Source of the DNA: an uncultured Rhodospirillales bacterium
GTDB lineage: Bacteria; Pseudomonadota; Alphaproteobacteria; Acetobacterales; Acetobacteraceae
DNA length: 33,948 nucleotides
Assembly: GCA_903843125.1 (NCBI GenBank)
Contig: CAIMOR010000541.1
Coordinates: forward strand, 1-33,948
Reading direction: 5' to 3'
Part shown: in pieces, positions 15,751-33,948 of the stretch
Position numbering within the stretch: position 1 is the stretch's first letter
Layout: each line of letters opens with the position of its first letter
Translations under genes and position numbers: made by a program
Notes under the pieces: generated by a model
Told to the model about the DNA's origin: nothing
What the model saw: only the letters and a program-made list of their open reading frames with translations
Database searches by the model: none

Positions 15751-15766
15751 TGGCACGCAGCTTGCG
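15751..15766 (+). promoter_or_regulatory. Sigma-54 (-24/-12) promoter of the STAS/EPS-export operon
   Basis: TGGCACG-CAGC-TTGCG is an almost perfect RpoN site (GG at 15752-15753, GC at 15764-15765). The predicted start near 15777 gives a leader of about 29 nt to the ATG at 15806. A weak dyad-like CGGCAATTCGGCA lies upstream at 15729-15741 but matches the regulon dyad in only 8 of 13 positions. Confidence 0.75.
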
Positions 15767-18657: not shown

Positions 18658-18659
18658 CC

Positions 18660-19349: not shown

Positions 19350-19391
19350 GCCACCGCGCCGGGGTGCCCGCCTGAGCGGCTGCGACCACCG

Positions 19392-19404
19392 CCGCATTCT
19401 GCAA
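19392..19404 (+). promoter_or_regulatory. Regulon dyad upstream of the sigma-54 promoter at 19416
   Basis: CCGCATTCTGCAA matches the dyad TTGCATTCCGCAA (reverse complement of the copy at 31487) in 10 of 13 positions. It ends exactly 11 nt before the -24 element, the same spacing as at 31487 and 33016. Confidence 0.55.
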
Positions 19405-19415
19405 GGCGGCCTGCA

Positions 19416-19431
19416 TGGCACGGCGGCTGCC
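19416..19431 (+). promoter_or_regulatory. Sigma-54 (-24/-12) promoter of the acyltransferase operon
   Basis: TGGCACG-GCGG-CTGCC keeps the full -24 box and the GG-N10-GC spacing (GG 19417-19418, GC 19429-19430). The predicted start near 19441 gives a leader of about 26 nt to the ATG at 19467. It lies in the only sizeable gap between 15806 and 26295, so it probably drives the block from 19467 to 26295. Confidence 0.68.
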
Positions 19432-19466
19432 TTGCCAGCCGCGAACCCGATGCGGAGACCGAGGCG

Positions 19467-20177
19467 ATGAGTGCAGTGCTGGCCGTCAGGCAACATATCA
19501 AGGCTCAGCAGACGCCCCTGGCCAAGCTGGCCTGGCGCGGCGTGCAGGCGGTGCGTGGCGCCCGCGTGCCGATGGTGCGGCCGCTCCACGCGGCGCTCTA
19601 CGCGCTGCACACCGGGCTGCGCGATACGCTCTCGCAGGTGGCGCGGGCGCTGTACTGGACCCCATTGCTGCTCTCGCGCTGCGAAACCCCGGCGCCCGGC
19701 CTGCGGCTCGAGGGCGGCATGCCTTTCATCGCCGGGCCGCTGCGGCTGCGGCTGGGGCGCGACGTGCGGCTTTCCGCCGCTGCCACGCTTTCGGCGCGGC
19801 CCTCCTCGCGCCCCCGGCCGATGCTGGAGGTGGGCGATAATGTGGATATCGGCTGGCAGACCACCATCGCGGTGGGCACCCGGGTAGTGCTGGGCAACAA
19901 TGTGCGGCTGGCCGGTCGCAACTTCCTGGCGGGCTACCCCGGCCATCCGCTGGACCCCGTGGCGCGTGCCGCCGGTCTGCCCTGCCAGGATGCGCAGTGC
20001 GGCGACATCGTGCTGGAGGACGATGTCTGGCTCGGCACCGGCGTCACCGTGCTGGCGGGCGTGCGGATTGGCCATGGCACCGTGGTGGGCGCCGGCTCCG
20101 TGGTGACGAAGGATCTGCCGCCGATGGTGCTGGCCGGCGGCAACCCATGCCGCGTCCTCCGCGCGTTGGCGGGCTGA
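19467..20177 (+). CDS. Left-handed beta-helix (hexapeptide-repeat) acyltransferase
   Basis: A 236-residue transferase related to WbbJ/maltose O-acetyltransferases. After a basic amphipathic N-terminal region of about 75 residues, hexapeptide repeats run from about 110 to the end, for example VGDNVDIGWQTTIAVGTRVV and IVLEDDVWLGTGVTVLAG, closing with the family ending AGGNPCRVLRAL. It probably adds acetyl or another acyl group to a sugar of the EPS. It heads a polycistron behind a sigma-54 promoter, and the next gene starts six bases after its stop. Confidence 0.87.
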   Translation: MSAVLAVRQHIKAQQTPLAKLAWRGVQAVRGARVPMVRPLHAALYALHTGLRDTLSQVARALYWTPLLLSRCETPAPGLRLEGGMPFIAGPLRLRLGRDVRLSAAATLSARPSSRPRPMLEVGDNVDIGWQTTIAVGTRVVLGNNVRLAGRNFLAGYPGHPLDPVARAAGLPCQDAQCGDIVLEDDVWLGTGVTVLAGVRIGHGTVVGAGSVVTKDLPPMVLAGGNPCRVLRALAG

Positions 20178-20182
20178 GCGGC

Positions 20183-21343
20183 ATGGCCCGCGACCTGATC
20201 GTCTTCGGCGAGGATTGGGGCGCGCACCCCTCCTCCACCCAGCACCTGGTTCGGCTGCTGGCGGCGGACCGTGGCGTGCTGTGGGTCAACAGCATCGGCC
20301 TGCGCCGCCCGCGGCTGTCGGTGCGCGACCTCGGCCGGGCCTGGCGCAAGCTGCGTGCCGCGCTGGCACGGCCTGCGGCTGATGGCGCGCCGGCACGGCC
20401 GGGCGCCGCCATCCAGTGTGAGACGCTCGGCCCGCTCGCGCCGTTCCCCGTGGTGCAACCGCTCGCGCTGCCCATGGCCCAGGGCATGTGGGCGCGGGCG
20501 CTGAACCGGGTGTTGCTGGGTCGCCGGGTGCGCGGCGCCGCGGGCGCGTTGCGGCGGCCGGTGGTATGGGCCAGCCTGCCCTCCGCGGTGCAGGCGCTCG
20601 GCGCCTGTGGCGAGAGCGCGGTCGTGTACTACTGTGGCGACGATTTCGGCGCCCTGGCCGGCGTGGACCACGCGGCCGCCCTGGCCATGGAAGCCGAGAT
20701 GGCCGCCCGCGCCGACCTGATCCTGGCGGCATCGCCAGCCCTGGCGGCGCGCTTCCCCGCGCACAAGACGGCGCTGCTGGAACATGGCGTGGACTACCGG
20801 CTGTTTGCCACGCCGGCGCCCCGCCCAGCCGATCTGCCGAAGGGCCCGGTAGCCGGCTTCTACGGCTCCCTGGCGCCCTGGCTGGACCTGCGGCTGGTAG
20901 CGGCCACCGCCCGCCTGCTGCCTGACTGGCGTTTCCTGTTCATCGGCAACCCCTCGGCCGGCACCGATCTTGCGGCGCTGGAGGGGGTGGGCAACATCGT
21001 ACGGCTGGGGCCGAAGCCGCATGCCGCGCTGCCGGGCTATGCCCAGCATTGGACGGCGGGGCTGATCCCGTTCCTCGACAACGACCAGATCCGCGCCTGC
21101 AATCCGCTGAAGCTGCGCGAATACCTGGCGGCCGGTCGGCCCGTGGTCAGCACGCCATTCCCGGCGCTGCAGCCCTATGCCGGGCTGGTGCACCAGGCGA
21201 CGACGGCCGCTGGCTTCGCCGCCGCCCTGCAGGCCGCCGCCGCGGCGGCGCCCGGCCCTGATGCCGCCCGCCAGCGGGCAGTGGCCGCCGAATCCTGGTC
21301 GGCCCGGGCCGCCCGGGCGGCACAACTGATCGAAGCGCTGTAG
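20183..21343 (+). CDS. Glycosyltransferase, GT-B fold (TuaH-like)
   Basis: A 386-residue glycosyltransferase. It opens with DLIVFGEDWGAHPSSTQHL, typical of the TuaH-like branch that acts on exopolysaccharides and teichuronic acids. In the middle is YYCGDDFGALAGVD, then AGFYGSLAPWLDLRLV as the start of the donor domain, and near the end NPLKLREYLAAGRPVVSTPF, the nucleotide-sugar region. The frame is open about 60 codons upstream, overlapping the acyltransferase gene, so the ATG at 20183, five bases after that gene ends, is preferred. Donor and acceptor are unknown. Confidence 0.87.
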   Translation: MARDLIVFGEDWGAHPSSTQHLVRLLAADRGVLWVNSIGLRRPRLSVRDLGRAWRKLRAALARPAADGAPARPGAAIQCETLGPLAPFPVVQPLALPMAQGMWARALNRVLLGRRVRGAAGALRRPVVWASLPSAVQALGACGESAVVYYCGDDFGALAGVDHAAALAMEAEMAARADLILAASPALAARFPAHKTALLEHGVDYRLFATPAPRPADLPKGPVAGFYGSLAPWLDLRLVAATARLLPDWRFLFIGNPSAGTDLAALEGVGNIVRLGPKPHAALPGYAQHWTAGLIPFLDNDQIRACNPLKLREYLAAGRPVVSTPFPALQPYAGLVHQATTAAGFAAALQAAAAAAPGPDAARQRAVAAESWSARAARAAQLIEAL

Positions 21344-21395
21344 GATGCCCCGGCGCAGCCCGATTCAGCGTTGCGCGGGAAGGAGTTGCCTTCGC

Positions 21396-21890
21396 ATGTC
21401 GCGCCGCCTGCTGCCCCTGTTGCTGTTGCTGGCCGCCTGCCAGCCCTCGCCCGAGCAAACCCTGGCGCTGGCCCAGCTCCGCGCCACGGGTGGCGGGGAT
21501 GCCAGCGGTGGCACCAGCGTAGCTGCCATGCTGGCTCGCGCCCGTGCCGCCGCTGCCGGGCCGCCGGGGCAGCTGGTGCTGCGCTACGGCGCCACCGAGG
21601 TATTGCCCGACGCGGCCCAGCGCAGCGAGCTCAGCCGCTTCGCCACCGCCAACCACGGCGCGCCCGCGGTGGTGGTGCTGGCGCGCGCAGCCGGAGCCGC
21701 GGGCGAGGATGCCTCGCTGCTGAGCCAGCGCCGGGCGTTGGCCGTTGCTCGCCTTTTGCAGGCGGATTTCCGCGAAGTGCAATTGCGATTCGAGAAGGAA
21801 GCCCCCGTCGGCCAGGTCTTGGTGCTGCGGGAGGCTGGCACACCGCTTGCCCCAGGCGCTGCTGTCCCCACGCCATCGCGCCAGCCCTGA
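21396..21890 (+). CDS. Small OmpA-like lipoprotein
   Basis: A 164-residue predicted lipoprotein with lipobox LLLLAAC and Cys15. The ATG at 21396 follows GGGAAGGAG with a ten-base spacer and directly precedes the signal; an upstream in-frame ATG at 21345 would spoil the signal peptide. The C-terminal half (GQLVLRYGATEVLPDAAQ, then LSQRRALAVARLL) has the spacing of an OmpA-like peptidoglycan-binding fold, but the usual NxxL/DxxG/R signature is incomplete. It probably sits at the outer membrane facing the cell wall. Position between a glycosyltransferase and the Wzz-like gene ties it to EPS assembly. Confidence 0.8.
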   Translation: MSRRLLPLLLLLAACQPSPEQTLALAQLRATGGGDASGGTSVAAMLARARAAAAGPPGQLVLRYGATEVLPDAAQRSELSRFATANHGAPAVVVLARAAGAAGEDASLLSQRRALAVARLLQADFREVQLRFEKEAPVGQVLVLREAGTPLAPGAAVPTPSRQP

Positions 21891-21928
21891 TCCAGGGGCG
21901 GCGGCGGTTGTGGGACACCGGAGCCGCC

Positions 21929-23401
21929 ATGACCGCCGCATCCACCGCCGCCGGCAACACCGCCGCCCCTCCGCCGCTGGCCGAGGTGATCCACGGGCTG
22001 TTGGCCGCTGCCTGGCGCCGGCGCTACGTGATCGCGCTGCCTATCCTGGTACTGCCGGTCGTCGGCGGCATCATCGGTGGCTTCGCCCCGCGCAGCTATG
22101 AGGCGCGGATGAGCGTGCTCATCCAGGACCCGGCCAAGTTCAACCCATTCATGGAAGACCTGACGGTCCATTCCAACCTGCGCGACCGCATGGAGGGCCT
22201 GCGTGCCCTGGTGACCAGCCGCTACGTGCTGGCCGAGGTGGCCAAGGACCTGGAGATGATCCCGCGTGACGCTTCCGAGCGCCGGCAGAGCGAGGCGGTG
22301 AGCTACCTGGCCGCCGGCGTCTCGGTGCAGTTGGTCGGGCAGGAAATGGTGGAGCTGCGCTACCGCGCCGCCAACCCCACCGGCATGGACCAGGTGCTCA
22401 CCCGCATCGGCGAACGGTTTATCGAACGCGTACGCGGACCGGAGGACAGCAGCCTGCGCAGCAGCACGCGCTTCCTGGAGGGACAGATGCGCACCGCCAC
22501 CGCCGAGCTGGACGACGTGGAAACCCGCCTCTCGGCCTTCAAGACCGAACACGCCGCGCAACTGCCGGACCTGCGCGCCACCAATATCCAGCGCCTGGCC
22601 GCGCTGCGCGAGCAGCTGGCGGACCGCGAAGTGAAGCTGGCCGGCGCCGAGGGCGAGGTGGGCGCGATGCGCGAACGCCTGCTGGCCACCAACCCGGTGC
22701 TGGGCCGCATCGAGCAGGACATCGTCACCACCATGGGCGAGCTGGCCCTGCTGCGTGCCCGCTACACCGACGACCATTCCAGGGTTCAGGCGGCGCAATT
22801 CAAGCTGGACCGGCTGGAGCAGGAGCGCCTGGCCCTGCTGGAAGCCGCCCGCACCGCACCGAACATGGACCCCAACCGGCTGTGGAACCTGGCCGCCATG
22901 GCCGAGCCGCGCAGCGAGCGCGCGCAGCCACTGCTCATCAGCCAGGTCGGCGCCATGGCCGGCGTGCGCGACCGCGTGGAGCAGTATCGCGCCGAGGTGG
23001 CCAACCTGCGGGCCGGCATCACCGAGGTCGAGGCCCGCATCGCCGGCAGCGGCGAGGTGGAACGCCAGATCCGCGGCCTGGAACGCGACGTGGCGGTGAA
23101 GGCCGAGCTCGTCACCACGCTGCGCCGCCGCTACGAGATGGCGCAGGTGACCACGGACCTTGCCATCCAGCAGGCCCCGGAACGCATCAAGATCATCGAC
23201 CGCCCGTTCGTGCCGACCGCGCCGATGAAGCCGATGCAGCTGATCTTCACCATCGTCGGCCTGGTCGCCGGCATCGGGCTGGGTATCGGGCTGGCGGTGC
23301 TGATGGAGTTGTTCGACAGCACCTTCCGCCGCGCCCGCGACGTGGAAAAGGCTACCGGCGTGACGGTGCTGGCGCGCATGCCGCCGCTGGCCCGGGCCTG
23401 A
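21929..23401 (+). CDS. Wzz/GumC-type polysaccharide chain-length determinant
   Basis: A 490-residue inner-membrane polysaccharide co-polymerase. The first transmembrane helix is at about 33-53 (YVIALPILVLPVVGGIIGGF) and the second at about 437-460 (LIFTIVGLVAGIGLGIGLAV), preceded by the proline-rich PTAPMKP. Between them lie the Wzz domain (ARMSVLIQDP at about 59-68) and long coiled coils of roughly 175-375 (LEGQMRTATAELDDVETRLS). There is no fused kinase domain; the CpsD-like partner is separate at 18660. The ATG at 21929 is chosen because the hydrophobic N-terminus follows it; the frame itself is open from 21371. It sets EPS chain length and links to the SLBB exporter. Confidence 0.92.
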   Translation: MTAASTAAGNTAAPPPLAEVIHGLLAAAWRRRYVIALPILVLPVVGGIIGGFAPRSYEARMSVLIQDPAKFNPFMEDLTVHSNLRDRMEGLRALVTSRYVLAEVAKDLEMIPRDASERRQSEAVSYLAAGVSVQLVGQEMVELRYRAANPTGMDQVLTRIGERFIERVRGPEDSSLRSSTRFLEGQMRTATAELDDVETRLSAFKTEHAAQLPDLRATNIQRLAALREQLADREVKLAGAEGEVGAMRERLLATNPVLGRIEQDIVTTMGELALLRARYTDDHSRVQAAQFKLDRLEQERLALLEAARTAPNMDPNRLWNLAAMAEPRSERAQPLLISQVGAMAGVRDRVEQYRAEVANLRAGITEVEARIAGSGEVERQIRGLERDVAVKAELVTTLRRRYEMAQVTTDLAIQQAPERIKIIDRPFVPTAPMKPMQLIFTIVGLVAGIGLGIGLAVLMELFDSTFRRARDVEKATGVTVLARMPPLARA

Positions 23402-23412
23402 GGAGCGCCACC

Positions 23413-24486
23413 ATGCAGAACCCCCTCATCCACGTGGTGCAGCACCTGGCGCCCGGCGGGTTGGAGGTGATGGCGCTGGAACTGGCCCGCGCCCAGGCGG
23501 CGCAGCGCCCCACGCTGGTGCTCTCGCTGGAAGGCGATGCCGATCGCGCCCTTGCCGCCTGGCCCCGGCTGGCGCAGCACCGGGAACAGCTGCTGTTCCT
23601 GGGCAAGCGCCCCGGGCTGGATGCGGCGCTGCCGGCGCGGCTGGTGGCGCTGTTCCGCCGGCTCAAGCCCTGGGCGGTGCATACGCACCATGTCGGCCCG
23701 CTGCTCTATGCCGGCCCCGCCGCGCGCCTAGCCGGGGTGAAGCGCCGGCTGCACACGGAACACGATGCCTGGCACCTGGCTGACGCGAAGCGCCGCGCCG
23801 TGGTGAAGCTGGCGCTGCGGCTGGCCAGGCCGGTGCTGGTGGCCGATGCGCCGCATGTGGCGGAGGCCGTGCGGGAAGCGATCGGCGTGGTGCCGCGCGT
23901 GGTGCTGAACGGCGTGGACACCCTGCGCTTCGCCCCTGGCGACAAGGCCGCCGCCCGCGCCACGCTGGGCCTGCCGGCCGGCCGTGTCATCCTGGGCGTG
24001 GCGGCGCGGCTGGAGCCGGTGAAGGGCGTGGACATCGCCATCGCCGCCCTGGCGCTGCTGCGGGGCGATGCCCTGCTGGCGGTAGCCGGCGATGGCGGCC
24101 AGGCCGCCGCCCTGCAGCAACAGGCGCAGGCGCTGGGCGTGGCGGATCGGGTGCGCTTCCTCGGCCTGGTGCAGGACATGGCTGGCTTCTACCAGGCGCT
24201 GGATGGCTATTGCCTGCCCTCCCGCAATGAAGGCCTGCCGCTGGCACTGCTGGAAGCGCAGGCAACCGGGCTGGGCGTGGTGGCGGCGCGGGTCGGCGGC
24301 GTGCCGGCGGCCTGCGACCCGCATTCTGCATGGCTGGTTGCCACCGAAGACCCGGTGGCACTGGCATTGGGAATGCAGTCCCTGCTGGCTAACCGCGGCG
24401 GCGACCCGCGTGGCTTCGTGCTGGCCCATGCCAGCCTGGCCGCCGCCGCCGGGGCTTACCTGAAGCTCGCCGAGGAGGCCGCCTGA
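23413..24486 (+). CDS. Family 4 glycosyltransferase
   Basis: A 357-residue GT-B enzyme. N-terminal HVVQHLAPGGLEVMALELA is the acceptor-side glycine loop. VHTHHVGPLLYAG and RRLHTEHDAWHLAD follow. VLGVAARLEPVKGVDIAI-type sequence opens the donor domain, and SRNEGLPLALLEAQATG carries the E-x7-E motif. The ATG at 23413 follows AGGAGC. It is tightly packed after the Wzz gene and overlaps the next glycosyltransferase by one base (TGATG). Confidence 0.9.
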   Translation: MQNPLIHVVQHLAPGGLEVMALELARAQAAQRPTLVLSLEGDADRALAAWPRLAQHREQLLFLGKRPGLDAALPARLVALFRRLKPWAVHTHHVGPLLYAGPAARLAGVKRRLHTEHDAWHLADAKRRAVVKLALRLARPVLVADAPHVAEAVREAIGVVPRVVLNGVDTLRFAPGDKAAARATLGLPAGRVILGVAARLEPVKGVDIAIAALALLRGDALLAVAGDGGQAAALQQQAQALGVADRVRFLGLVQDMAGFYQALDGYCLPSRNEGLPLALLEAQATGLGVVAARVGGVPAACDPHSAWLVATEDPVALALGMQSLLANRGGDPRGFVLAHASLAAAAGAYLKLAEEAA

Positions 24487-25637
24487 TGCTTGCCACCGCT
24501 ACGCTCTCCGCGCTGGGTCTTGCCGCCTGGCACCACGCCGGCTGGCCGTTGCTGCTGCGCCACGCCGCGCGCACCGCGGCCCCAGCCCCGGCGCCGCTGG
24601 CCGAGGCCGCGCTGCCCGTGGTGACCGTGGTGATGCCGGCGCATAACGAGGCCGCCTTCATCGCGGCCAAGCTGCGCAACCTGGCCGCCCTGGACTACCC
24701 ACGCGAAAAGCTGCGCGTGGTGGTGGCCTGCGACGGCTGCAGCGACGCCACCGTGGCCCTGGCTCGCGAAGCCCTGCCCGGGCTGGACCTGCACGCCGAG
24801 ATCCGCGACCTGCAGCCCAACCGCGGCAAGCTGGCGGTGCTGAATGAGACCATCGCGGCCATTGCCGAAGGCATCGTCGCGCTCAGCGACGTCTCGGCCA
24901 TGCTGCCGGCGGATGCGCTGCGGCTGGCCACCGGGCATTTCGCCGAAGCGACGCTGGGTGCGGTGGGCGGCACCTACCTGCTTGCGCGCCCCGGTTCGGC
25001 CGGCGAGGCGACCTATTGGCGCTACCAGGTGGCGGTGAAGCGGGGCGAGGCCGCGCTGGGCGCGCCGCTCGGGCTGCACGGCGCCTTCTGGTGCTTCCGG
25101 CGCGAGGCTTGGCAGCCGCTGGAGGCGGATACCATCAACGACGACTTCATCCTGCCGCTGCGGATGCACCTGGCCGGCTGGCGCCTGGCCTACGATGACC
25201 GCATCCGCGTGCTGGAGGCCGAGGTCTCCAACCCCGCGCTGGAAGCGCGGCGGCGGCGGCGCATCGCGGCCGGCAACGCGCAGCAGTTGTGGCGGCTCAG
25301 GGCGCTGCTGCACCCGCGCCAGGGCGGCGTGGCCTTGGCGTTCGCCTCCGGCAAGGCGCTGCGGGTGGTGATGCCCTTCCTGTTGGGCTTCGCGATGCTG
25401 GGCAGCTGGGCGCTGGCGACATCCAGCGCCTTCTTCGCGGTTCTCGCAGGTTGCGAGGCGTTGGGCCTGACACTGGCCGCATTGGGCGCATTCTGCGGCG
25501 CGGCGGCGCCGAAACCCTTGGCGGTATTGAGGTATCTGGCCTCAGGGCACCTCGCCAGCGCGGTTGGCGTGGCACGCTACCTGCTGCTGCGTCCCCGCCA
25601 ACCCTGGCGCCGTGCAATGACGCCGGCCGCCGCCTGA
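24486..25637 (+). CDS. Membrane-anchored family 2 glycosyltransferase
   Basis: A 383-residue GT-A enzyme. VVTVVMPAHNEAAF (45-58), CDGCSD (82-87) and SDVSA (134-138) form the nucleotide-binding Asp sites. NDDF (218-221) holds the acceptor Asp, and RRRRRIAAGNAQQLW (255-269) occupies the place of the QxxRW motif of processive synthases. One N-terminal hydrophobic segment and two or more C-terminal ones (after about 297) anchor it in the membrane. The layout fits GT2 enzymes that build EPS backbones, but the sugar is unknown. Its ATG overlaps the stop of the previous gene. Confidence 0.88.
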   Translation: MLATATLSALGLAAWHHAGWPLLLRHAARTAAPAPAPLAEAALPVVTVVMPAHNEAAFIAAKLRNLAALDYPREKLRVVVACDGCSDATVALAREALPGLDLHAEIRDLQPNRGKLAVLNETIAAIAEGIVALSDVSAMLPADALRLATGHFAEATLGAVGGTYLLARPGSAGEATYWRYQVAVKRGEAALGAPLGLHGAFWCFRREAWQPLEADTINDDFILPLRMHLAGWRLAYDDRIRVLEAEVSNPALEARRRRRIAAGNAQQLWRLRALLHPRQGGVALAFASGKALRVVMPFLLGFAMLGSWALATSSAFFAVLAGCEALGLTLAALGAFCGAAAPKPLAVLRYLASGHLASAVGVARYLLLRPRQPWRRAMTPAAA

Positions 25638-25653
25638 GACGGAGAGACCGACC

Positions 25654-26295
25654 ATGCCGGAGAACCTGCACCTGCCGTTGCACGTGGCCTACGCCAAGCG
25701 TGGCTTCGACATACTCGTCGCGCTGCTGGCGCTGGCCATCACCCTGCCGCTGTTCCCGTTGATCGCGCTGGCGGTGAAGCTGGACAGCCGCGGCCCCGCC
25801 GTGTTCCGCCAGCTCCGCGTCGGCCGGATGCGGCCCGACCGCACCGAGCTGTTCGTGATGTACAAGTTCCGCAGCATGCGCCGGGATGCCGAGGCGAAAT
25901 CCGGCGCGGTCTGGGCGGCCAAGCGCGACCCGCGCATCACCCGCGTCGGCAACTTCCTGCGCAAGACCCGGCTGGACGAGTTGCCGCAGCTGTTCAACGT
26001 GCTGAAGGGCGAGATGAGCATCGTCGGCCCGCGACCGGAGCGCCCAGGCTTCTACGGCCGCCTGGAGAAGGCGGTGCCCTTCTTCGCCGAGCGCACGGCG
26101 GGGCTGCGGCCCGGCATCACCGGCATGGCGCAGGTCTACCAGGGCTACGACACCTGCCTGGACGACGTGCGCAAGAAGGCCGGCTGGGACCACGCCTATG
26201 CGCTGAGCCTGACCAGCCTGTACAGCTGGCTGGCGGTGGATGCCCGCGTGGCGCTGACCACGGTGCAGGTGATGGTGACCGGACGCGGCCAATAG
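25654..26295 (+). CDS. Undecaprenyl-phosphate sugar phosphotransferase (EPS initiation)
   Basis: A 213-residue bacterial sugar transferase of the short WcaJ/PglC-like type. A single membrane helix (about 17-42) is followed by KFRSM (71-75), TRLDELPQLFNVLKGEMSIV (105-124, with the conserved Asp-Glu) and GPRPER (125-130). The family moves a sugar-1-phosphate to undecaprenyl phosphate, the first step of a Wzx/Wzy-made polysaccharide. It is the last gene of the block that starts at 19467 and is followed by the hairpin at 26418. Confidence 0.93.
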   Translation: MPENLHLPLHVAYAKRGFDILVALLALAITLPLFPLIALAVKLDSRGPAVFRQLRVGRMRPDRTELFVMYKFRSMRRDAEAKSGAVWAAKRDPRITRVGNFLRKTRLDELPQLFNVLKGEMSIVGPRPERPGFYGRLEKAVPFFAERTAGLRPGITGMAQVYQGYDTCLDDVRKKAGWDHAYALSLTSLYSWLAVDARVALTTVQVMVTGRGQ

Positions 26296-26417
26296 CGTCC
26301 GATCGGCGCCGGCGAGGGCTGGCCCGAATCAGCTGCTCGATACACCAGGCTAGGACCTGGTCGAAGACCACCGTGAGCGTCTGGGCGGACTCCCGCCTGC
26401 TGCCGCTCGCCGGTCGG

Positions 26418-26460
26418 CGCGGTATCGCCCCGGGGTGCAGACGCCCGGGGCGATACCGCG
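26418..26460. terminator. Strong 17-bp hairpin without T-run
   Basis: Arms 26418-26434 and 26444-26460 are perfectly complementary over 17 bp, GC-rich, with a 9-nt loop. It lies 122 nt after the sugar transferase stop. There is no T-run on either side, so it is an mRNA-stabilising or Rho-assisted end of the operon or some other structural element rather than a classical intrinsic terminator. Confidence 0.5.
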
Positions 26461-26578
26461 TGTCTACGCGGGCAAGCAACGGGGTGCGGGCCTGCGGCCC
26501 ATCCGCGCCAAGCTGCGTCCTTGCCGGCAAAGCCGCTTCGGCACCCCGGCCACTGTGCCGGAGCGTTCTGCATTCAAC

Positions 26579-26607
26579 AAAAAACCCCCGCGACGGTGTC
26601 GCGGGGG
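26579..26607 (-). terminator. Rho-independent terminator of the minus-strand GT2 gene
   Basis: Arms 26585-26594 and 26598-26607 pair over 10 bp with a 3-nt loop. On the minus strand the stem is followed by six Ts (26584-26579). It lies 28 nt past the stop codon of the GT2 gene at 26635. Confidence 0.9.
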
Positions 26608-26634
26608 ACAATGCAGCCTGGGCATGCGGTGTGG

Positions 26635-27570
26635 TCAGGCTGCCGGGCGCAACGCCTGCAGCAGCAGCGCGGCGGCATGGCGCACCGCCCGTCGGCCTGG
26701 CTGGTGCAGTGCGGCGCCGCATTGCTTGGCCACCGCGCTCCAGGGCTGGCCGGCGGCCATCGCGGCTTCGGCCTCGGCGGCCAGCAGCCTGGCCTCGCAG
26801 CGGCGCAGCGCCGCGGGGTCCAGCGCCCCGGCGGCGGCGCGATGCCATTCCGCCACGGACCGCAGCGCGCTGGCCCGCTCGGCGGCCTTGTGCGAGAGAT
26901 TGCCGGGGCGGTGCATCAGGTAGTCGGTGCCGACCAGCTTCAGGCAGCCCACCGGCGCCTCGGCGGCCAGGCGCAGCCATAAATCCCAGTCCTCGGCCGA
27001 AACCAGTAGCTCGCCGAAGCCGCCACAATGGCGCAGCAACCGGGTCTGCGCCACCACCGTGGAGGTGCCGACCACGTTCTCGGCGTACAGCTGCGCCAGC
27101 GCATCCGCGCCCAGCAGGAAGCCGCCGCGCGCCTTTGCGTGGCGGGCAGCGAAGCCCGGCCAGTATTGGAAGCACGTGCCGCGATCCTCGCCCTCCGGCG
27201 TCACGTGGCGGTAGTCCGTAAAGCTGAAGCCAAGGTCCGGGAAGGCCCGATGCAAGGCAAGCTGCACCGCCAGCTTGCCAGGGCGCCAGGTATCGTCGGC
27301 GTCCAGGAACGCCACCAGCGGCGCGCGTGCCACGGCCAGGGCCAGGTTGCGGGCGGCGGAGGGACCGCGCCCGGCGCCCGGCAGCACCCGCAGCCGCGGC
27401 TCGCGGGCGGCCAGGTCGGCCAGCACTTCCGGCGTCTCGTCGGTGGAGCCATCGTCGACGACGATGATCTCCAGCGCCGGGTCGGATGCGATGCTGCCGA
27501 TGCAGGCCGGCAGGTAGCCGGCCACGTTGCGGGCGGGGATGATGACCGAAAGGTCCAGGGGCTTGTGCAT
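26635..27570 (-). CDS. Family 2 glycosyltransferase (GT-A)
   Basis: A 311-residue GT2 enzyme with DLSVIIPARNVAGYL at the N-terminus, VVDDGSTD (37-44) and FLDADDTW (88-95), the two Asp motifs that bind UDP-sugar and metal. The later SAEDWDLWLRL is the family's acceptor-loop Asp. The frame is open to 27711, but the ATG at 27570 (MHKPLDLSVI) is the natural start. No Shine-Dalgarno sequence precedes it, and a sigma-54-like element on this strand would place transcription start almost at the ATG. It is oriented against the surrounding EPS genes and has its own terminator. Confidence 0.9.
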   Translation of the reverse strand: MHKPLDLSVIIPARNVAGYLPACIGSIASDPALEIIVVDDGSTDETPEVLADLAAREPRLRVLPGAGRGPSAARNLALAVARAPLVAFLDADDTWRPGKLAVQLALHRAFPDLGFSFTDYRHVTPEGEDRGTCFQYWPGFAARHAKARGGFLLGADALAQLYAENVVGTSTVVAQTRLLRHCGGFGELLVSAEDWDLWLRLAAEAPVGCLKLVGTDYLMHRPGNLSHKAAERASALRSVAEWHRAAAGALDPAALRRCEARLLAAEAEAAMAAGQPWSAVAKQCGAALHQPGRRAVRHAAALLLQALRPAA

Positions 27571-27581
27571 GCGCGGGCCGA

Positions 27582-27597
27582 GGCAACCCGCGTGCCT
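27582..27597 (-). promoter_or_regulatory. Possible sigma-54 element in front of the minus-strand GT2 gene
   Basis: On the minus strand AGGCACG-CGGG-TTGCC has correct GG-N10-GC spacing. The predicted start near 27571 leaves essentially no leader before the ATG at 27570, so either the mRNA is leaderless or the match is fortuitous. It shares one base with the regulon dyad. Confidence 0.35.
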
Positions 27598-27609
27598 TGC
27601 GGATTGCAA
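27597..27609. promoter_or_regulatory. Regulon dyad TTGC-N5-GCAA between divergent glycosyltransferases
   Basis: TTGCGGATTGCAA is a clean dyad, differing from the copy at 31487 in one base. It ends 21 nt before the -24 box at 27631, ten more than the 11 nt at the other promoters, i.e. one helical turn further. Confidence 0.65.
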
Positions 27610-27630
27610 GGCAGCGTGCAGTGCCGCGCA

Positions 27631-27646
27631 TGGCATGGCCGATGCA
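27631..27646 (+). promoter_or_regulatory. Sigma-54 (-24/-12) promoter of the glycosyltransferase-flippase pair
   Basis: TGGCATG-GCCG-ATGCA keeps GG-N10-GC (27632-27633, 27644-27645) with two departures from consensus. The predicted start near 27657 gives a leader of about 21 nt with AAGGA at 27664-27668 before the ATG at 27678. Confidence 0.55.
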
Positions 27647-27677
27647 GTGACGCCGCCGAACGCAAGGAACCTCACTG

Positions 27678-28916
27678 ATGCCCGACGGCAACCCGCTTCG
27701 CGACCTGCCAACCGACCTGCGGACGGGCCTGCCCGCGGCTGGCCTGAACCTGCTCTACGTACTGGCGGCCTTCCCGGTGCTGTCAGAGACCTTCGTCAGC
27801 AACGAGATCCGCGCCATGCGCATCGCCGGCCACCGGGTGACGCCGCTGGCCCTGGCACCGTTCGACGGCCCCTGCCAGCCGCAGGACGAGGCGTTCCGCG
27901 ACGAGACGCTGATGCTGGCCAGCCAGCACGCCGCCGGTGCGGTGGCGGCCAGCGCGCGGAATCCGGCAGGGTTGGCCCGCGCCTTGGCCTTCGCGCTGCG
28001 TCAGCGCGGCATCGGCGCCGCCGCCCTGCTGCTGGCAGGCGCCCGGGTGGCACAGGTGGCGCGGCGGGTTGGTGCCACGCATATCCACGCACACTTCGCC
28101 CATGTGGCCGCGGCCACCGCCATCGTCGGTGCCCGGCTGGCTGGCCTGAGCGTCTCCTTCATCGGCCATGGCTACGACGTGTACGGCACGCCGACCGACC
28201 TGGCGCCCAAGCTGGCCGCCGCCGACCTGGCCATTGCCACCTGTGACGACATGGCTGCCGACTTCCGCCGCCAGGCCCCAGGCGCCCGTGTGGCGGTCGT
28301 TCGCTGCGGTATCGACCCCAACCGCTTTCGCCGGCCGGCTGGCATGGTGCGGCGCAATCGCCGGCTGCTGGCCATCGGCCGGCTGACCGAACAGAAGGGC
28401 TACCCGGTGCTGCTGCGCGCGCTGGCGCTGCTGCCCGAGGCCAGCCGCCCGGTGGTGGACGCGGTGGGCACCGGCCCGCTGCTGGACGAGTTGCGCGCCA
28501 TGGCGCTGGCCCTCGGCGTCAGCGACAGCTTTCGGTTACTCGGCGCCCGCGACAGCGACTGGATCGCCGAGCACGGGCCGCACTACCTCGGCTTCGTCGC
28601 GCCCTACGTCATCTGCGCCAATGGCGACCGCGATACCGGCCCGATGGCGGTCAAGGAGGCCATGGGCATGGAGCTGCCGGTGGTCGGCTCCGCGCTGATG
28701 GGCGTGAAGGAGATGGTCACCCCGGAGAGCGGCCGCCTGGTCACGCCCGGCGACCCCGCCGCGCTGGCCGAGGCACTGGCCTGGCTGGCAACATTGCATG
28801 AGCCGGAGCGCCGCCTGATGGGGCAGCACGGTCGGGCGCATCTGCTGCGCGGCTTCACCCTGGCGGCGCAGGTCGCCCAACTGGGCAGCGCCTTCGCCAG
28901 CTGCCGCGGGCGCTGA
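27678..28916 (+). CDS. Family 4 glycosyltransferase (colanic-acid type)
   Basis: A 412-residue GT-B enzyme of the branch that includes colanic acid and amylovoran transferases. LLYVLAAFPVLSETFVSNEI is its typical N-terminus, HIHAHFAHVAAATA the acceptor region, and RLLAIGRLTEQKGYPVLLRA the donor motif. The E-x7-E position reads DTGPMAVKE, with Asp in place of the first Glu. The ATG at 27678 has AAGGA at good spacing. It precedes the flippase gene by three bases. Confidence 0.9.
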   Translation: MPDGNPLRDLPTDLRTGLPAAGLNLLYVLAAFPVLSETFVSNEIRAMRIAGHRVTPLALAPFDGPCQPQDEAFRDETLMLASQHAAGAVAASARNPAGLARALAFALRQRGIGAAALLLAGARVAQVARRVGATHIHAHFAHVAAATAIVGARLAGLSVSFIGHGYDVYGTPTDLAPKLAAADLAIATCDDMAADFRRQAPGARVAVVRCGIDPNRFRRPAGMVRRNRRLLAIGRLTEQKGYPVLLRALALLPEASRPVVDAVGTGPLLDELRAMALALGVSDSFRLLGARDSDWIAEHGPHYLGFVAPYVICANGDRDTGPMAVKEAMGMELPVVGSALMGVKEMVTPESGRLVTPGDPAALAEALAWLATLHEPERRLMGQHGRAHLLRGFTLAAQVAQLGSAFASCRGR

Positions 28917-28919
28917 GCC

Positions 28920-30335
28920 ATGCTGGCCCGCCTGCCCGCCCCGCTGCGCGCTGCCGGGCTGTATGCCGGCGCCATGGTTTGGACCAAGGGGCTCGGCCTG
29001 CTGCTGCTGCCCGTGATCACCGCGCTGCTGCCGGCGGCGGAATATGGCCGCATGGAGTTCCTGTGTTCCGCCGCAGAGATTGCCGCGCTGGTGGCCGGCG
29101 CTGGGCTGGTGGACACCCTGTACCGCTTCGGCTCCGAGCCTGGCTCGGCCGGCCGCCGCTCCGCCGCGCAGGTGGCAGGCCTGGCGCTGATGGTCAGCCT
29201 GGGCGGGCTGGGATTGGCGCTGCTGCTCTCGCCGCTGGGGGCGCTGCTCCCCATGCCGGCAACCACCACCGAGGTGGCGCTGCTCGGTGTGACCGTGGCG
29301 CTCGAAGCCGCGATCGGCGTGCCGCTGGCGTGGTTGCGCATGCAGGGCCGCGCGGCGCACTACGCGGCCTTGGTGGTGGCGCGCGGCACGCTGCATTCGG
29401 CGCTGCTGGCGCTGCTGCTCTGGCAGGGCTTCGGCGTTGCCGGAATGCTGGCGGCGGGCGCGGTGGGTTCGCTCCTGGCGGCGTTGGCGCTGCTGGGCAG
29501 CCAGGCGAGGTCCACCGGCATCCGGCTGGCGCCGAACGCCTGGAAGCACCTGCTGGCCTACGGGCTGCCGCTCACCGCGGGCGGCCTGGCCTCCTTCTTC
29601 CTCGGCACCGCGGACCGCTGGTTTCTGGCCGGCACCGTCTCGGCGGCCGAACTCGGGCAATACGCGCTGGCCGCCAAGCTGGGCCTGGTGATGGCCTTCC
29701 TGACGCAGCCATTTGATCTTTGGTTCTACCCGCGTCGCATCGCGCTGTACGGCACCGCCACCGGGCCGGGGCAGGTGGCGAAGCTTTCCGCAACCGGTGC
29801 CGCCGTCACGCTCTGCGCCGCCGCCCTTGCCGCGCTGGCCGGGCCGTTGCTGATCCGTTGGGCGACTCCGGCGGCCTACCACGGCGCTGCCGGTTATGTG
29901 CCCTGGCTATGCGCGGCGCTGGCACTGCAGAGCCTGGGCAGCCTGTTCAACATCGGTTGCTACCTGCAGCGCACCGGCCGGCAGAGCTTGTTGGTGAATG
30001 GCGGTGCCGGGTTGGTGGCGCTGGCGGCCTACGCCGTGCTGATCCCGCGCTGCGGCGTGGCCGGCGCCGTGGCGGCTACGCTGCTGGCGCAAGCCGTGCG
30101 GCTGGTGTGGTTTGCCTGGCTGTCGCAGCGCAGTGCACCGCTGGCGTATGGCTTCGGCCGGGTGGCGCTGCTGGGGCTGGCCTGCGCGGCGGTGGCGGCG
30201 CTGCCGCAGCTGCTGGCGCCGTTGCCCACCCTGGCCATGGCACCGGCAGCGCTAGTGTGCCTGGCGACGCTGGCGGTGCGGCTGGGGTTGCTGCCTCGGC
30301 CGCGGTTGGGCACCGCGCGGCTGGTCCTGGGGTAG
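28920..30335 (+). CDS. Wzx-type oligosaccharide flippase (MATE-like/MVF fold)
   Basis: A 471-residue polytopic membrane protein with about 12 hydrophobic helices. The N-terminus GAMVWTKGLGLLLLPVITAL followed by AEYGRMEFLCS is the typical opening of Wzx/RfbX flippases, and a second similar half starts near GLPLTAGGLASFFLGTADRW. It would flip undecaprenyl-linked EPS repeat units across the inner membrane. It is the second gene of the unit driven from 27631 and ends before a bidirectional terminator. Confidence 0.9.
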   Translation: MLARLPAPLRAAGLYAGAMVWTKGLGLLLLPVITALLPAAEYGRMEFLCSAAEIAALVAGAGLVDTLYRFGSEPGSAGRRSAAQVAGLALMVSLGGLGLALLLSPLGALLPMPATTTEVALLGVTVALEAAIGVPLAWLRMQGRAAHYAALVVARGTLHSALLALLLWQGFGVAGMLAAGAVGSLLAALALLGSQARSTGIRLAPNAWKHLLAYGLPLTAGGLASFFLGTADRWFLAGTVSAAELGQYALAAKLGLVMAFLTQPFDLWFYPRRIALYGTATGPGQVAKLSATGAAVTLCAAALAALAGPLLIRWATPAAYHGAAGYVPWLCAALALQSLGSLFNIGCYLQRTGRQSLLVNGGAGLVALAAYAVLIPRCGVAGAVAATLLAQAVRLVWFAWLSQRSAPLAYGFGRVALLGLACAAVAALPQLLAPLPTLAMAPAALVCLATLAVRLGLLPRPRLGTARLVLG

Positions 30336-30451: not shown

Positions 30452-31396
30452 TCAGGCTGCGCGGTCGAGCGCGCTGAGCAGGCTCTCGCAGGTCAGCCGC
30501 AGACCTTGTTCCAGCGGCACCCTCGCCTGCACGCCCAGCGTCGCAATGGCAGCCCGCGGGTCGCCCAGGCTCTGGCGTATGTCGCCGGCGCGGCCAGCGG
30601 TGAAGCTCAGCGCGGCCGGGCGCCCGCTGATGCGCGCCAGGGTCTGCGCCAACGTCAGCACGCTGGTGGCGCGACCGGTACACACGTTGAACACGGCGGC
30701 CTGCGGCGCATGGTGCAGCAGCTTCATGCCGGCCATCAGGTGCGCCACCACGTCGGCGACGTAGACGAAGTCACGGGTCTGGCCGCCATCGCCATGAATG
30801 GTGACGCCCTGGCCGCTGGCCATGCGCGCGGCGAAGATGGAGATGACCCCACTGTAGGGCGACTTCGGGTCCTGCCGCGGCCCGTACACGTTGAAGAAGC
30901 GGCAGCCCAGCGTGGGCACGCCATGCACGCCGAAGCCGACCCGGGCATGCAGCTCGCTGCCGTATTTGTCGGCGCCATAGGCGGTGGCTGGGGTCGGCGT
31001 GGCGGCCTCGACGATCGGGCCGGCGCCCTGGTCGCCGTAGATGGCCGCCGAACTGGCGTAGACCACGGGGATGCCACCGGCATCCCGCGCCGCCGCCAGC
31101 ACGGCGATGGTCCCGCCGAGGTTGGTGCGGTGAGTGCCGAGCCAATCTTCGTTCGACCGCTGGACCGAGGCGATGGCAGCCAGGTGGAATACCCCGGCGG
31201 TGCCGGCGGCGGCCTGGCGCATCAAGGCGGCATCGGCGACATCGCCCACCAGCAGCTCGCAGCGCGGGTCCAGGTTGACGCGATGGCCGGTAGAAAGGTC
31301 GTCCACCACACGCACGCGGTGGCCATGGGCCAGCAGCGCATCCGCCAGGTGGGAGCCGATGAAGCCGGCGCCGCCGGTGACAAGGTAAAGAGCCAT
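30452..31396 (-). CDS. NAD-dependent UDP-sugar epimerase/dehydratase (GalE-like SDR)
   Basis: A 314-residue extended short-chain dehydrogenase. TGGAGFIGSH (7-16) binds NAD, SSAAIYG supplies the catalytic Ser near 116, and Tyr140-x3-Lys144 is the catalytic pair (YGADK). RFFNVYGPRQDP is the substrate-loop signature of UDP-hexose 4-epimerases and related enzymes. The ATG at 31396 starts MALYLVTGGAGFIG directly. It provides a nucleotide sugar for the EPS. The exact epimer (UDP-Gal, UDP-GalNAc or UDP-GalA) is not resolved. Confidence 0.92.
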   Translation of the reverse strand: MALYLVTGGAGFIGSHLADALLAHGHRVRVVDDLSTGHRVNLDPRCELLVGDVADAALMRQAAAGTAGVFHLAAIASVQRSNEDWLGTHRTNLGGTIAVLAAARDAGGIPVVYASSAAIYGDQGAGPIVEAATPTPATAYGADKYGSELHARVGFGVHGVPTLGCRFFNVYGPRQDPKSPYSGVISIFAARMASGQGVTIHGDGGQTRDFVYVADVVAHLMAGMKLLHHAPQAAVFNVCTGRATSVLTLAQTLARISGRPAALSFTAGRAGDIRQSLGDPRAAIATLGVQARVPLEQGLRLTCESLLSALDRAA

Positions 31397-31486: not shown

Positions 31487-31499
31487 TTGCGGAATGCAA
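31487..31499. promoter_or_regulatory. Regulon dyad TTGC-N5-GCAA upstream of the exosortase unit
   Basis: TTGCGGAATGCAA is a clean dyad with 4-bp arms (TTGC/GCAA). It ends exactly 11 nt before the -24 box at 31511. Copies related to it stand before four other EPS promoters or candidates. Confidence 0.7.
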
Positions 31500-31510
31500 C
31501 GCGATGCGCC

Positions 31511-31526
31511 CGGCACGCGGGTTGCA
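31511..31526 (+). promoter_or_regulatory. Sigma-54 (-24/-12) promoter of the CTERM protein-exosortase operon
   Basis: CGGCACG-CGGG-TTGCA differs from the RpoN consensus only at the first base; GG at 31512-31513 and GC at 31524-31525. The predicted start near 31537 gives a leader of about 32 nt containing AGGAG before the ATG at 31569. Confidence 0.78.
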
Positions 31527-31568
31527 GAACGGCCGGTCGGTGAAATCCAACCTGAACAGGAGAGAACG

Positions 31569-31793
31569 ATGAGATACGTCAGCCTGCCCACGGCGCTGCT
31601 GGCCTGCGCGCTGGCCGCCAATGCCGCCCGCGCCGAAGACGGCAATGACCGGAAGGACGGAGGCGGCGCCGGGTTTACGGCCGGAGCGGTTTCCCAGGCA
31701 CCGCTGCCGCTGGCGGGCATTCCCACCGCTGTCGCGCTGCTGGTCGGCGCCGGCCTGACCCTACGTCGCCGCCGTTCCGGTTCTGCTGCCTGA
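31569..31793 (+). CDS. Tiny exosortase-substrate candidate with C-terminal sorting tail
   Basis: A 74-residue protein. Residues 1-22 form a signal peptide ending in ARA. Residues 23-44 are a short Gly/Asp/Lys-rich segment. The C-terminus has PLP (45-47), a hydrophobic helix (about 48-65) and RRRR (66-69), the tripartite plan of PEP-CTERM/VPLPA-CTERM sorting signals. The upstream frame to 31422 lacks a signal; the ATG at 31569 has AGGAG at good spacing and lies in the predicted leader of the sigma-54 promoter. The exosortase gene starts two bases after its stop. If both ends are removed the mature product would be only about 22-28 residues. It could instead be a plain small membrane protein. 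Confidence 0.8.
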   Translation: MRYVSLPTALLACALAANAARAEDGNDRKDGGGAGFTAGAVSQAPLPLAGIPTAVALLVGAGLTLRRRRSGSAA

Positions 31794-31795
31794 AC

Positions 31796-32620
31796 ATGGC
31801 TGCGCGCGTCCTGCCCTGCGCCAGACTCCAGGACCCGGAACCGGTGGGGCGAGGACTGGCGGTACCGGCGGTGTCGGTGCCTAATCTGCGGGTTCGTGAG
31901 TTGCTGCTGCCGGCAGGGACGGCTGCTTTCGTACGCCTGTCATGGGCGGGGGCGCCCGGTTGGGCCTCGCCACCGATGCTGCTGGCTCTTGCCGCCACGG
32001 TCCTGCTGCTATGGCAGATGCCAGCGCGGCGGGCCGGGCCGCGTGACGTCGCCGGCTTCGCGCTGGCACTGGCGGCCATTGCGCTGCCAGGCGGCCTGCC
32101 CTGGCTGGCGCTGCCCTGCCTGGCGGTGCTGGCGTTGCCAGGGGCGCAGCTGGCCGGCGTGCTGCTGCTCGGACTGGGCGCCGAAGGCCTGAGCCACGGC
32201 TTGGCCGGCCAGCTGGTACTGGTGCCGGTGGTCGCGGCGGAGGCCTGGGCCACGGCGACGTTGGCCAATCTCTGCGGGACGCCGGCGCACCCTTCCGGCG
32301 CAGCCGTGCTGCTGCCGCATGGCCGGGTGCTGCTGCTGCTGCGCGCGTGTTCCGTGGTTTCGCTGTTCTGGCCCACGCTGCTCGCCACTCTGGCCTTGCC
32401 CGCGCTGCTGCACCGTGCGACGCGGCCTGTCTGGGGCCCGGCGTTGGCGGCCCTTGGACTGATGCTGCTGCTGAACCTGCTGCGTCTGCTGGCCATGGCG
32501 CTGTCGCCCGGCGCGCACGCCTTCCTCCACACGCCCGCCGGCGAGGAGCTGACGGAAATCACCTTCGCCCTGCCGCTCCTGCTGGCTTTGGTATCGGTGC
32601 CGCCGTGCGCTGGCCGCTGA
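31796..32620 (+). CDS. Divergent exosortase (exosortase/archaeosortase family)
   Basis: A 274-residue multi-pass membrane protein with about seven to eight hydrophobic segments. The family triad is visible: Cys185 in RACSVVSLFWPTLLA (compare the ACSG loop of exosortases), Arg230 in LNLLRLLAM (compare ANxxR) and His245 followed by Gly249 in FLHTPAGEE (compare HExxG). Spacing of 45 and 15 residues suits the family. The expected Gly after CS is Val187. The start has no ribosome site and relies on coupling to the substrate gene two bases upstream. It would cleave the sorting tail of the 74-residue protein at the membrane. I cannot assign a named Xrt subfamily. Confidence 0.82.
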   Translation: MAARVLPCARLQDPEPVGRGLAVPAVSVPNLRVRELLLPAGTAAFVRLSWAGAPGWASPPMLLALAATVLLLWQMPARRAGPRDVAGFALALAAIALPGGLPWLALPCLAVLALPGAQLAGVLLLGLGAEGLSHGLAGQLVLVPVVAAEAWATATLANLCGTPAHPSGAAVLLPHGRVLLLLRACSVVSLFWPTLLATLALPALLHRATRPVWGPALAALGLMLLLNLLRLLAMALSPGAHAFLHTPAGEELTEITFALPLLLALVSVPPCAGR

Positions 32621-33015
32621 GCAGCGCCGCGCTGGCCCTGGCGCTGGGCCTGGCCTGGCCCCCCGCCCAGCCGCCGGCCGCGGCCACGGCGCCACGCCAG
32701 GGATTGCCCGGATTCCGCTTGGTGGCGCAGCACAACCTGGTGGCCGAGGGCCGCCTGCACTATGCGCTGCTGCGCAACGCCGCCGGTTGCCAGTTGGTGC
32801 TGGCGCCGCTGGACCAGCCGGAGGAAATGCTGCCGTTGCTGCAACAGGCGCTGCCGGACCACACTTGGCGGTCCGCGGTGCTGCTGCTTGATCAGCAGGC
32901 CTACCCGCTGGGCTCGGCGCTTGGGGTGAACCTGCGGCGCCTGCGCGAAAGGCTGCTGACCGGCACCGCCCCGGCAGCGTGGTTCCTGGCCGACCCGGAG
33001 CAGTGCCGGCGCTGA
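32605..33015 (+). CDS. Unknown exported protein coupled to the exosortase
   Basis: A 136-residue protein starting at a GTG at 32605, inside the last 16 bases of the exosortase gene. The frame is open further upstream, but this start places a hydrophobic segment (SSAALALALGLAW) at the N-terminus as a signal peptide or anchor. The rest is soluble with two Cys (in GCQLVL and near the end, EQCRR) that could form a disulfide in the periplasm. I do not recognise the family. Its place after an exosortase is where EpsI-type partners often stand, but EpsI is longer and no resemblance is evident. Confidence 0.7.
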   Translation: MRWPLSSAALALALGLAWPPAQPPAAATAPRQGLPGFRLVAQHNLVAEGRLHYALLRNAAGCQLVLAPLDQPEEMLPLLQQALPDHTWRSAVLLLDQQAYPLGSALGVNLRRLRERLLTGTAPAAWFLADPEQCRR

Positions 33016-33055: not shown

Positions 33056-33085
33056 ATGCCGCCGCGGACGCCAGGGAACCCTACC

Positions 33086-33948
33086 ATGCACACCCCCGCC
33101 TTCGACTGGAGCATCGCCGTTTTCGCCCGCAATGAGGCCGCCAGCCTGGCACCTTGCCTGGAGGCGATATACGCCGCGCTCGGCGGCCGCTGCGCCGCGG
33201 TGACGCTGGTGCTGAATGGCTGCACCGATGGCTCGGCCGCGCTGGCCGTCGCGCTGGCCGCCCGAGCGCCCGTGCCGGTCCAGGTCTGGCAGATCGGCTT
33301 TGCCGACAAGGCCAATGCCTGGAATCAGTTCATTCACGCGCTGCGCCCCGCCGCCCGCCACTACGCCTTCGTGGACGCCTATGCGCGGGTACAGCCCGGC
33401 GCGCTGGCCGCGCTGCAGGCGGCATTGCAGGCGGCGCCCGAGGCGAATGCCGCCGCCGCGGTCCCGAGCTGCGGCCGCAGCGCCGCTGCCACCCGCGCCG
33501 CCATGCTGGCCAGGCCGGCACTGCATGGCTCCCTGCACGCGTTGCGCGGCAGCTTCGTGGACCGCCTTGCCGCTGCTGGGCAGCGCCTGCCGGTCGGGCT
33601 GTATCGCGGCGACGGGCTGCTGGGCAGCCTGCTGATGCACGACCTCAACGCAGCAGCCAACCCGTGGAACCCCGCGCGCATTGCGGTGGCCGATGGCGCC
33701 AGCTGGGTGACAAGCCCGCTTTCACCGCTACGCCCCGCCGACCTCAAGCGCTACTGGAACCGCCGCATTCAGCAGGCGCGTGGCCGGCTGGAGGACGCGG
33801 CGCTGCGCGAGGCCATCTACCGCGACGGTTTCGCCGGCCTGCCGCGTCACGCCGACGCCATGCTGCTGGAGTGGCTGGCCACCAACCCGGCCCCTGCGGA
33901 CCACTTCACCCGCCTGGCGCTGCAGCGCCTGCGCCAGCCCCGCACCCC
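33086..33948 (+). CDS. Family 2 glycosyltransferase-like protein (partial, runs off the right edge)
   Basis: An open frame of at least 287 codons that continues past the window. The N-terminus FDWSIAVFARNEAASLAPCL and LVLNGCTDGS (41-50) match the GT-A nucleotide-binding fold of family 2. The metal motif region reads FVDAYARV, with Asp97-Ala-Tyr99 where DxD is usual, so metal binding may differ. The ATG at 33086 follows CCAGGGA and a sigma-54 promoter. It is likely an EPS glycosyltransferase, but the substrate and full length are unknown. Confidence 0.85.
   Translation, partial: MHTPAFDWSIAVFARNEAASLAPCLEAIYAALGGRCAAVTLVLNGCTDGSAALAVALAARAPVPVQVWQIGFADKANAWNQFIHALRPAARHYAFVDAYARVQPGALAALQAALQAAPEANAAAAVPSCGRSAAATRAAMLARPALHGSLHALRGSFVDRLAAAGQRLPVGLYRGDGLLGSLLMHDLNAAANPWNPARIAVADGASWVTSPLSPLRPADLKRYWNRRIQQARGRLEDAALREAIYRDGFAGLPRHADAMLLEWLATNPAPADHFTRLALQRLRQPRT

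Follow-up and report, generated by a model that had tools for sequence, protein, structure and literature searches.

Organisation of the locus

The stretch of DNA analysed, here called the window, is a whole contig of 33,948 bases from a draft genome of 5.56 Mb (572 contigs, 98% complete). At 31511-33015 it contains a near-consensus sigma-54 site, followed by genes for a 74-residue secreted protein, a 274-residue membrane protein and a 136-residue exported protein. The promoter, of the -24/-12 type (CGGCACGCGGGTTGCA, 31511-31526, forward strand), has one mismatch to TGGCACGNNNNTTGCW and sits 58 nt before the ATG of the first gene. All three genes are on the forward strand: the ORF for the 74-residue protein, the predicted sorting substrate (31569-31793); the divergent exosortase (31796-32620); and the exported partner, which has a GTG start (32605-33015). 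Two nucleotides lie between the stop of the substrate gene and the start of the enzyme gene, and the enzyme and partner genes overlap by 16 nt. Promoter and ORFs are where an earlier reading, made from the letters of the DNA, had placed them. The true start of the enzyme is uncertain: besides the ATG at 31796, a GTG some 80 nt downstream could serve, and it is this one that the L008 relative suggests.

Six other type-1 loci carry these three genes in this order. In the closest pair of loci (L025 and L027), dN/dS is 0.26 for the enzyme, 0.31 for the partner and 0.85 overall for the tiny ORF. Judged by this conservation of order and these dN/dS values, none of the three ORFs arises by chance. 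No relatives were found among viral contigs.

Positions 15806-30335 form an EPS biosynthesis and export locus of the XrtA/PEP-CTERM type, as indicated by the matches of its OPX exporter (TIGR03027, 182.4 bits against a cut-off of 180) and its chain-length protein (best match TIGR03007, below its cut-off). Its genes encode a STAS-domain protein, a lipoprotein, the OPX exporter, a kinase, the chain-length protein, a sugar transferase, glycosyltransferases and a flippase. The first three, in the order STAS-domain protein, small lipoprotein and OPX exporter (15806-19349), stand behind a sigma-54-type site with one mismatch (15751-15766, forward strand), 55 nt before the STAS gene. This order is kept across the class (window, L008, L120-L122, L124, L125), and the STAS genes of L008, L120-L122, L124 and L125 have an equivalent site.

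Between the EPS genes and the unit lies a divergent gene for an SDR sugar epimerase/dehydratase (30452-31396, reverse strand; Pfam Epimerase, 3.5e-50), and a similar gene is found beside the unit in L117-L119. Downstream, a glycosyltransferase-2-like gene (33056-33946; Pfam 20.8 bits, below 23.3) ends at the contig edge. Linkage to EPS genes was found in the window, at L008 and at most of the loci from outside the Acetobacteraceae, and not at L009, L010, L011, L025 or L027. The proposal that the unit is embedded in an EPS locus therefore stands for the former and not for several of the Acetobacteraceae units; since these lie outside EPS loci, the three-gene unit is portable.

The enzyme

Current models do not recognise the enzyme. 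Its score on TIGR04178 (exo_archaeo) is 16.7 bits, below the cut-off of 23; no NCBIfam model passes, Pfam (including PF09721) gives no exosortase match, and the XrtA model does not match it, one relative reaching 14.1 bits against a cut-off of 208. Scores on TIGR04178 range from 16.7 to 20.4 bits, and none of the approximately 17 members scanned exceeds the cut-off of any curated exosortase model. The relatives match several different exosortase/archaeosortase models, all below cut-off. The AlphaFold model has about nine predicted helices at a confidence (pLDDT 50) too low to confirm the eight-helix membrane fold of the superfamily, and a sequence search of the PDB gave nothing meaningful.

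When 29 family members are aligned with eight canonical exosortases, Cys185 (codon at 32348-32350), Arg230 (32483-32485), His245 (32528-32530) and Gly249 are invariant. Profile comparison using hhalign against canonical exosortases, collected from the same class with PF09721, gave 90% for the close (type-1) relatives, 94.4% for 13 sequences (E 9e-8) and, with 29 sequences, 95.1% (E 3e-8); none of the three unrelated membrane families used as controls went above 0.3%. The model misses weaken the formal family assignment only, and the homology given by profile comparison is unaffected. The sequence-only reading had called this protein an exosortase and proposed an HMM search as a check. The call is supported by the invariant residues and the profile comparison; in the HMM search itself, no exosortase model reaches its cut-off.

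In the tree, a fully supported split (100/100) divides the family from the canonical set. In the alignment, its Arg-to-His loop is six columns shorter than that of the canonical enzymes, and all members have an acidic residue at position 149 (Glu149 in the window, 32240-32242), which is absent from the canonical enzymes. On the basis of sequence comparison, the 274-residue protein is an exosortase relative, of a subfamily that lies outside current models.

The predicted substrate and its tail

The signal peptide of the 74-residue protein (31569-31634) terminates in ANAARA, its cleavage site being set by the A-x-A rule rather than by a predictor. It is followed by a linker of 21 residues, rich in Gly, Asp and Asn (31635-31697), and by the tail (31698-31790; APLPLAGIPTAVALLVGAGLTLRRRRSGSAA), which consists of APLPLAGIP, a hydrophobic stretch and RRRR. 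TIGR02595, the model of the PEP motif tail, does not match the protein.

In the closest pair, the tail motif is identical and the linker varies freely. The length of the linker runs from 9 to 234 residues across the loci, and one orthologue of the substrate has 288 residues, with Ser/Gly repeats. In six of the seven close loci the predicted hydrophilic part, from signal peptide to tail motif, is 9-38 residues long. Because the linker evolves freely (the substrate gene has a dN/dS of 0.85) and differs so widely in length, its behaviour is that of a spacer or scaffold and not of a signal under conservation. The type of tail tracks the enzyme subclade, being AGIP in the window, L008 and L010 and FGW or FGL in L024-L027 and L120, which suggests, at the level of sequence, that tail and enzyme have coevolved.

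The partner protein

A homologue of the partner lies directly downstream of the enzyme, or is fused to it, in all 27 loci; the five fusions are at L010, L032, L034, L069 and L076. Two cysteines, Cys62 (32788-32790) and Cys134 (33004-33006), are conserved in 26 and 27 of the 27 respectively. Profile comparison (98.5%, E 2e-15) places the partners of the Acetobacteraceae and those of other families in one family. The same comparison with the EpsI domains of canonical enzymes gave 0.6%, no NCBIfam model matches the partners that were tested, and the AlphaFold model (pLDDT 61.6) has no Foldseek match at E ≤ 0.001. From these profiles, the partner belongs to a new family with no detectable match to EpsI, whose place it occupies, in agreement with the earlier suggestion of a third component other than EpsI.

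Distribution and substrate exchange

Among the Acetobacteraceae sampled, the family was found in 17 of 397 genomes and 11 of 102 genera, the window's genome being counted. The rest of the class, the Alphaproteobacteria, adds nine further genomes from eight other families, among 289 sampled. L006 and L007 were rejected as relatives, as they look like chance matches: the aligned stretches are short, the E-values marginal and no companion genes are recognised. Distant exosortase-like proteins also occur beside mraZ/rsmH-like genes in two related genomes (L073 and L074; G391 and G282), where no partner or substrate was recognised. The enzymes of L073 and of L074/L022, beside rsmH-like genes, are left out of the 27, no partner being shown for them.

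The tail protein, enzyme and partner keep the same order in 7/7 close type-1 loci, so that the small tailed neighbour is conserved as had been anticipated. A secreted protein with a tail adjoins 23 of the 27 partner-linked enzymes; none was found next to the EPS-linked enzymes of L121, L122, L124 and L125. The substrates themselves are of several kinds: tiny low-complexity proteins, Npun_F0296-domain proteins, DUF4114-domain proteins and other large proteins. Small or Pro-rich tailed substrates occur at five further loci (L072, L120, L123, L126 and L130), DUF4114 substrates at two (the domain was scanned in one), and at two loci a large substrate is encoded divergently. The enzyme tree labels L126, L130, L032 and L034 as having no substrate, these having been found later; counts taken from the labels are outdated, and the topology is not. 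The description of the unit as miniature thus fits the tiny substrates of the close loci, and does not extend to the enzyme subfamily, which is not restricted to them.

In more distant relatives, of which three belong to the same genus as the window, the gene order is kept but the substrate is an Npun_F0296 protein. This domain, which is annotated as exosortase-dependent, was matched with scores of 79-85 bits, its cut-off being 29. The Npun_F0296 proteins beside the divergent enzyme (L028-L031, L069, L070, L076) have tails of the ASPL/RRRR type, and that of G436 (G436:C76:15589-16242) ends in an ordinary PEP-CTERM tail. By sequence, this comparison is one of tail swapping on a single surface-protein family.

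It is worth adding that a conserved, secreted-looking protein of about 143-171 residues (LPEIRLWLARLMESLDAGL...) is encoded beside units of the Npun_F0296 type (L028:6703-7185, L029:7361-7843, L030:6780-7295, L070:3166-3645 and L076:114-545). Neither NCBIfam nor Pfam has a match for the copies that were tested, and the protein is a possible fourth component of this subtype.

Number of substrates

A search of the window's genome with the tail profile gave one strong match, the neighbour of the enzyme (E 2e-13). A second match (E 6e-4, L083) was rejected, since it runs antisense to an acyltransferase gene. The profile likewise gave a single strong match, adjoining the enzyme, in each of five other genomes, making six in all. 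The window's genome has no PF09721 match, and its best exo_archaeo match is the enzyme of the window; other TIGR04178 matches, L037 and L038, fall in an ABC-type permease and a long unrelated frame and were discarded. It has no PEP-CTERM (TIGR02595) match at E ≤ 1 and no Npun_F0296 protein, and G571 similarly has no PEP-CTERM match.

The dedicated arrangement that had been proposed, with one enzyme and one adjacent target in the genome, is therefore what is found in the window's genome, where the search for further tails of the PLP type returned the neighbour as its one strong match and there is no canonical exosortase or PEP-CTERM protein. The count comes from a profile search, and is limited by the sensitivity of the tail profile and by the assembly (572 contigs, 98% complete). 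Besides their type-1 units, five genomes contain 14-62 PEP-CTERM matches, and presumably have another exosortase for these proteins; strict one-to-one pairing is thus shown only where PEP-CTERM proteins are absent.

Promoter and regulation

Sigma-54-type sites lie upstream of 11 of 15 substrate genes, against 13 of 101 control genes (Fisher p = 2.7e-6). Up to two mismatches were allowed, at 35-130 nt upstream, and the controls were genes whose intergenic DNA measured 60 nt or more; several of the 13 are themselves EPS genes. Sigma-54 control of PEP-CTERM genes is already known (PMC1569441, PMC9850573).

A putative enhancer element (TGCGGAATGCA, 31488-31498, forward strand) fits the palindrome-like pattern YGCRNAATGCR, which recurs upstream of sigma-54 sites in the window, L008, L024, L031, L069, L120, L124 and L125. 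It is present in 10 of 28 promoter regions of substrate and EPS genes, with 0.028 expected per region, although the pattern was partly derived from the sequences in which it was counted. It is unlike motif 1 of Haft 2006 (PMC1569441), which ends in TTTACA, and is a candidate activator site. PrsR (TIGR02915) was considered as the activator and set aside, the best match being 363.7 bits, below the cut-off of 502.6. The EPS operon that holds the miniature unit of L120 has as a neighbour a gene (L120:11170-12630) for a response regulator whose C-terminus is Fis-like; this protein is a candidate sigma-54 activator.

Proposed function and alternatives

On the basis of these observations, we hypothesise that the three genes form a dedicated unit of one exosortase and one substrate, which here lies inside an XrtA-type EPS locus, and we consider this likely. 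Sigma-54 RNA polymerase would transcribe the three genes, probably under an activation shared with the EPS operon next door. Guided by its signal peptide, the 74-residue protein would leave the cytoplasm through Sec and stay in the inner membrane, anchored by the motif, the hydrophobic stretch and the cytoplasmic arginines of its C-terminal tail. The polytopic enzyme would recognise the APLPLAGIP-type motif, with Cys185 attacking and Arg230 and His245 aiding, and remove the tail. The hydrophilic peptide, of about 20-30 residues, would then be released or passed on to an acceptor, for which a glycan or lipid belonging to the EPS machinery is the most likely choice. The partner, with its conserved pair of cysteines, would act in the periplasm and may assist the enzyme or present the acceptor. 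What is said here of cleavage and transfer, of the acceptor, of the partner's task and of EPS retention is extrapolated from known exosortase systems.

A more specific form of this proposal is that the unit represents a minimal, peptide-scale exosortase subfamily with its own non-EpsI partner, in which a short disordered peptide is attached to the exported glycan or released with it. We put this forward tentatively, as the less probable part of the picture.

Several other functions could be imagined for these genes. The enzyme could serve many targets, the neighbour being one of several substrates whose tails are too divergent for the profile. This would fit the four family enzymes that have no adjacent substrate, the difficulty of detecting short tails and the many PEP-CTERM proteins held by some genomes. 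However, there is one strong tail match per genome in six genomes, always adjacent; neither the window's genome nor G571 has PEP-CTERM matches; and the type of tail shifts with the enzyme subclade. We regard a many-target enzyme as unlikely.

It is less probable still that the enzyme acts on a polysaccharide or lipid, in the manner of a flippase or polymerase, with the tiny protein as an uncleaved membrane-anchored accessory. A flippase or polymerase role was at one time proposed for EpsH (PMC1569441), and the EPS location in the window, L008, L120-L122, L124 and L125 would suit such a role, but the Cys, Arg and His of exosortases are conserved, several units lie outside EPS loci, and the slot of the tiny protein is taken elsewhere by known exosortase-dependent surface-protein domains. 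The shortness of the hydrophilic part in six of the seven close loci might also bring to mind a secreted peptide (a signal, a toxin or a bacteriocin-like product), with the enzyme as its maturation protease. This we consider very improbable: the linker sequence is not conserved (dN/dS of the substrate gene in the closest pair, as above), the 288-residue orthologue with its Ser/Gly repeats fits a spacer and not a signal, and no immunity or exporter gene is recognised in the unit.

Relation to known systems

The dedicated exosortase unit proposed here most closely resembles the system of exosortase A (XrtA/EpsH) and PEP-CTERM (Haft 2006, PMC1569441). The two have in common the Cys, Arg and His residues, a tail made up of motif, transmembrane stretch and basic residues, a small exported protein encoded directly downstream of the enzyme or fused to it, EPS genes of the XrtA type, and sigma-54 promoters before the substrates. 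They differ in that the enzyme here is below the model cut-offs, has six residues fewer between Arg and His, and has the acidic residue at 149; the tail lacks PEP, the partner is not detectably EpsI, and no PrsR is above cut-off. A single adjacent substrate takes the place of many scattered ones.

Dedicated sorting systems, with one enzyme and one neighbouring target, have been defined for rhombosortase/GlyGly-CTERM and for a Gram-negative sortase (PMC3237569). As in these, the single target is encoded beside the enzyme; unlike these, the enzyme is an exosortase relative, there is a third conserved gene, and the product can be tens of residues long. Aquincola PepA, a small RpoN-dependent PEP-CTERM protein with an experimentally known role in EPS retention (PMC9850573), is likewise a sorting-tail protein under a sigma-54 promoter, but has a PEP-CTERM tail and a PrsK/PrsR context. 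Cyanoexosortase B, whose system has an EPS-linked surface phenotype, similarly has a small associated gene downstream (PMC12188702). Its genome, unlike that of the window, has 35 predicted PEP-CTERM substrates, and the partner in the window has no NCBIfam match.

What is new is a subfamily of a known kind and not a new kind, and the suggestion of an undescribed subtype holds in this sense. Exosortase relatives reach beyond current models, and annotation pipelines miss them in about 3-5% of sampled genomes. With the unit comes a partner family that stands where EpsI would be. The usual exosortase systems have dozens of substrates, and to our knowledge the reaction of bacterial exosortases (cut site and attachment target) is not settled. 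Here there are three small genes and one substrate of 62-90 residues, a set that could be transferred complete to a laboratory host, where the product could be weighed by mass spectrometry. The unit would thus be valuable as a minimal system in which to test the chemistry of exosortases.
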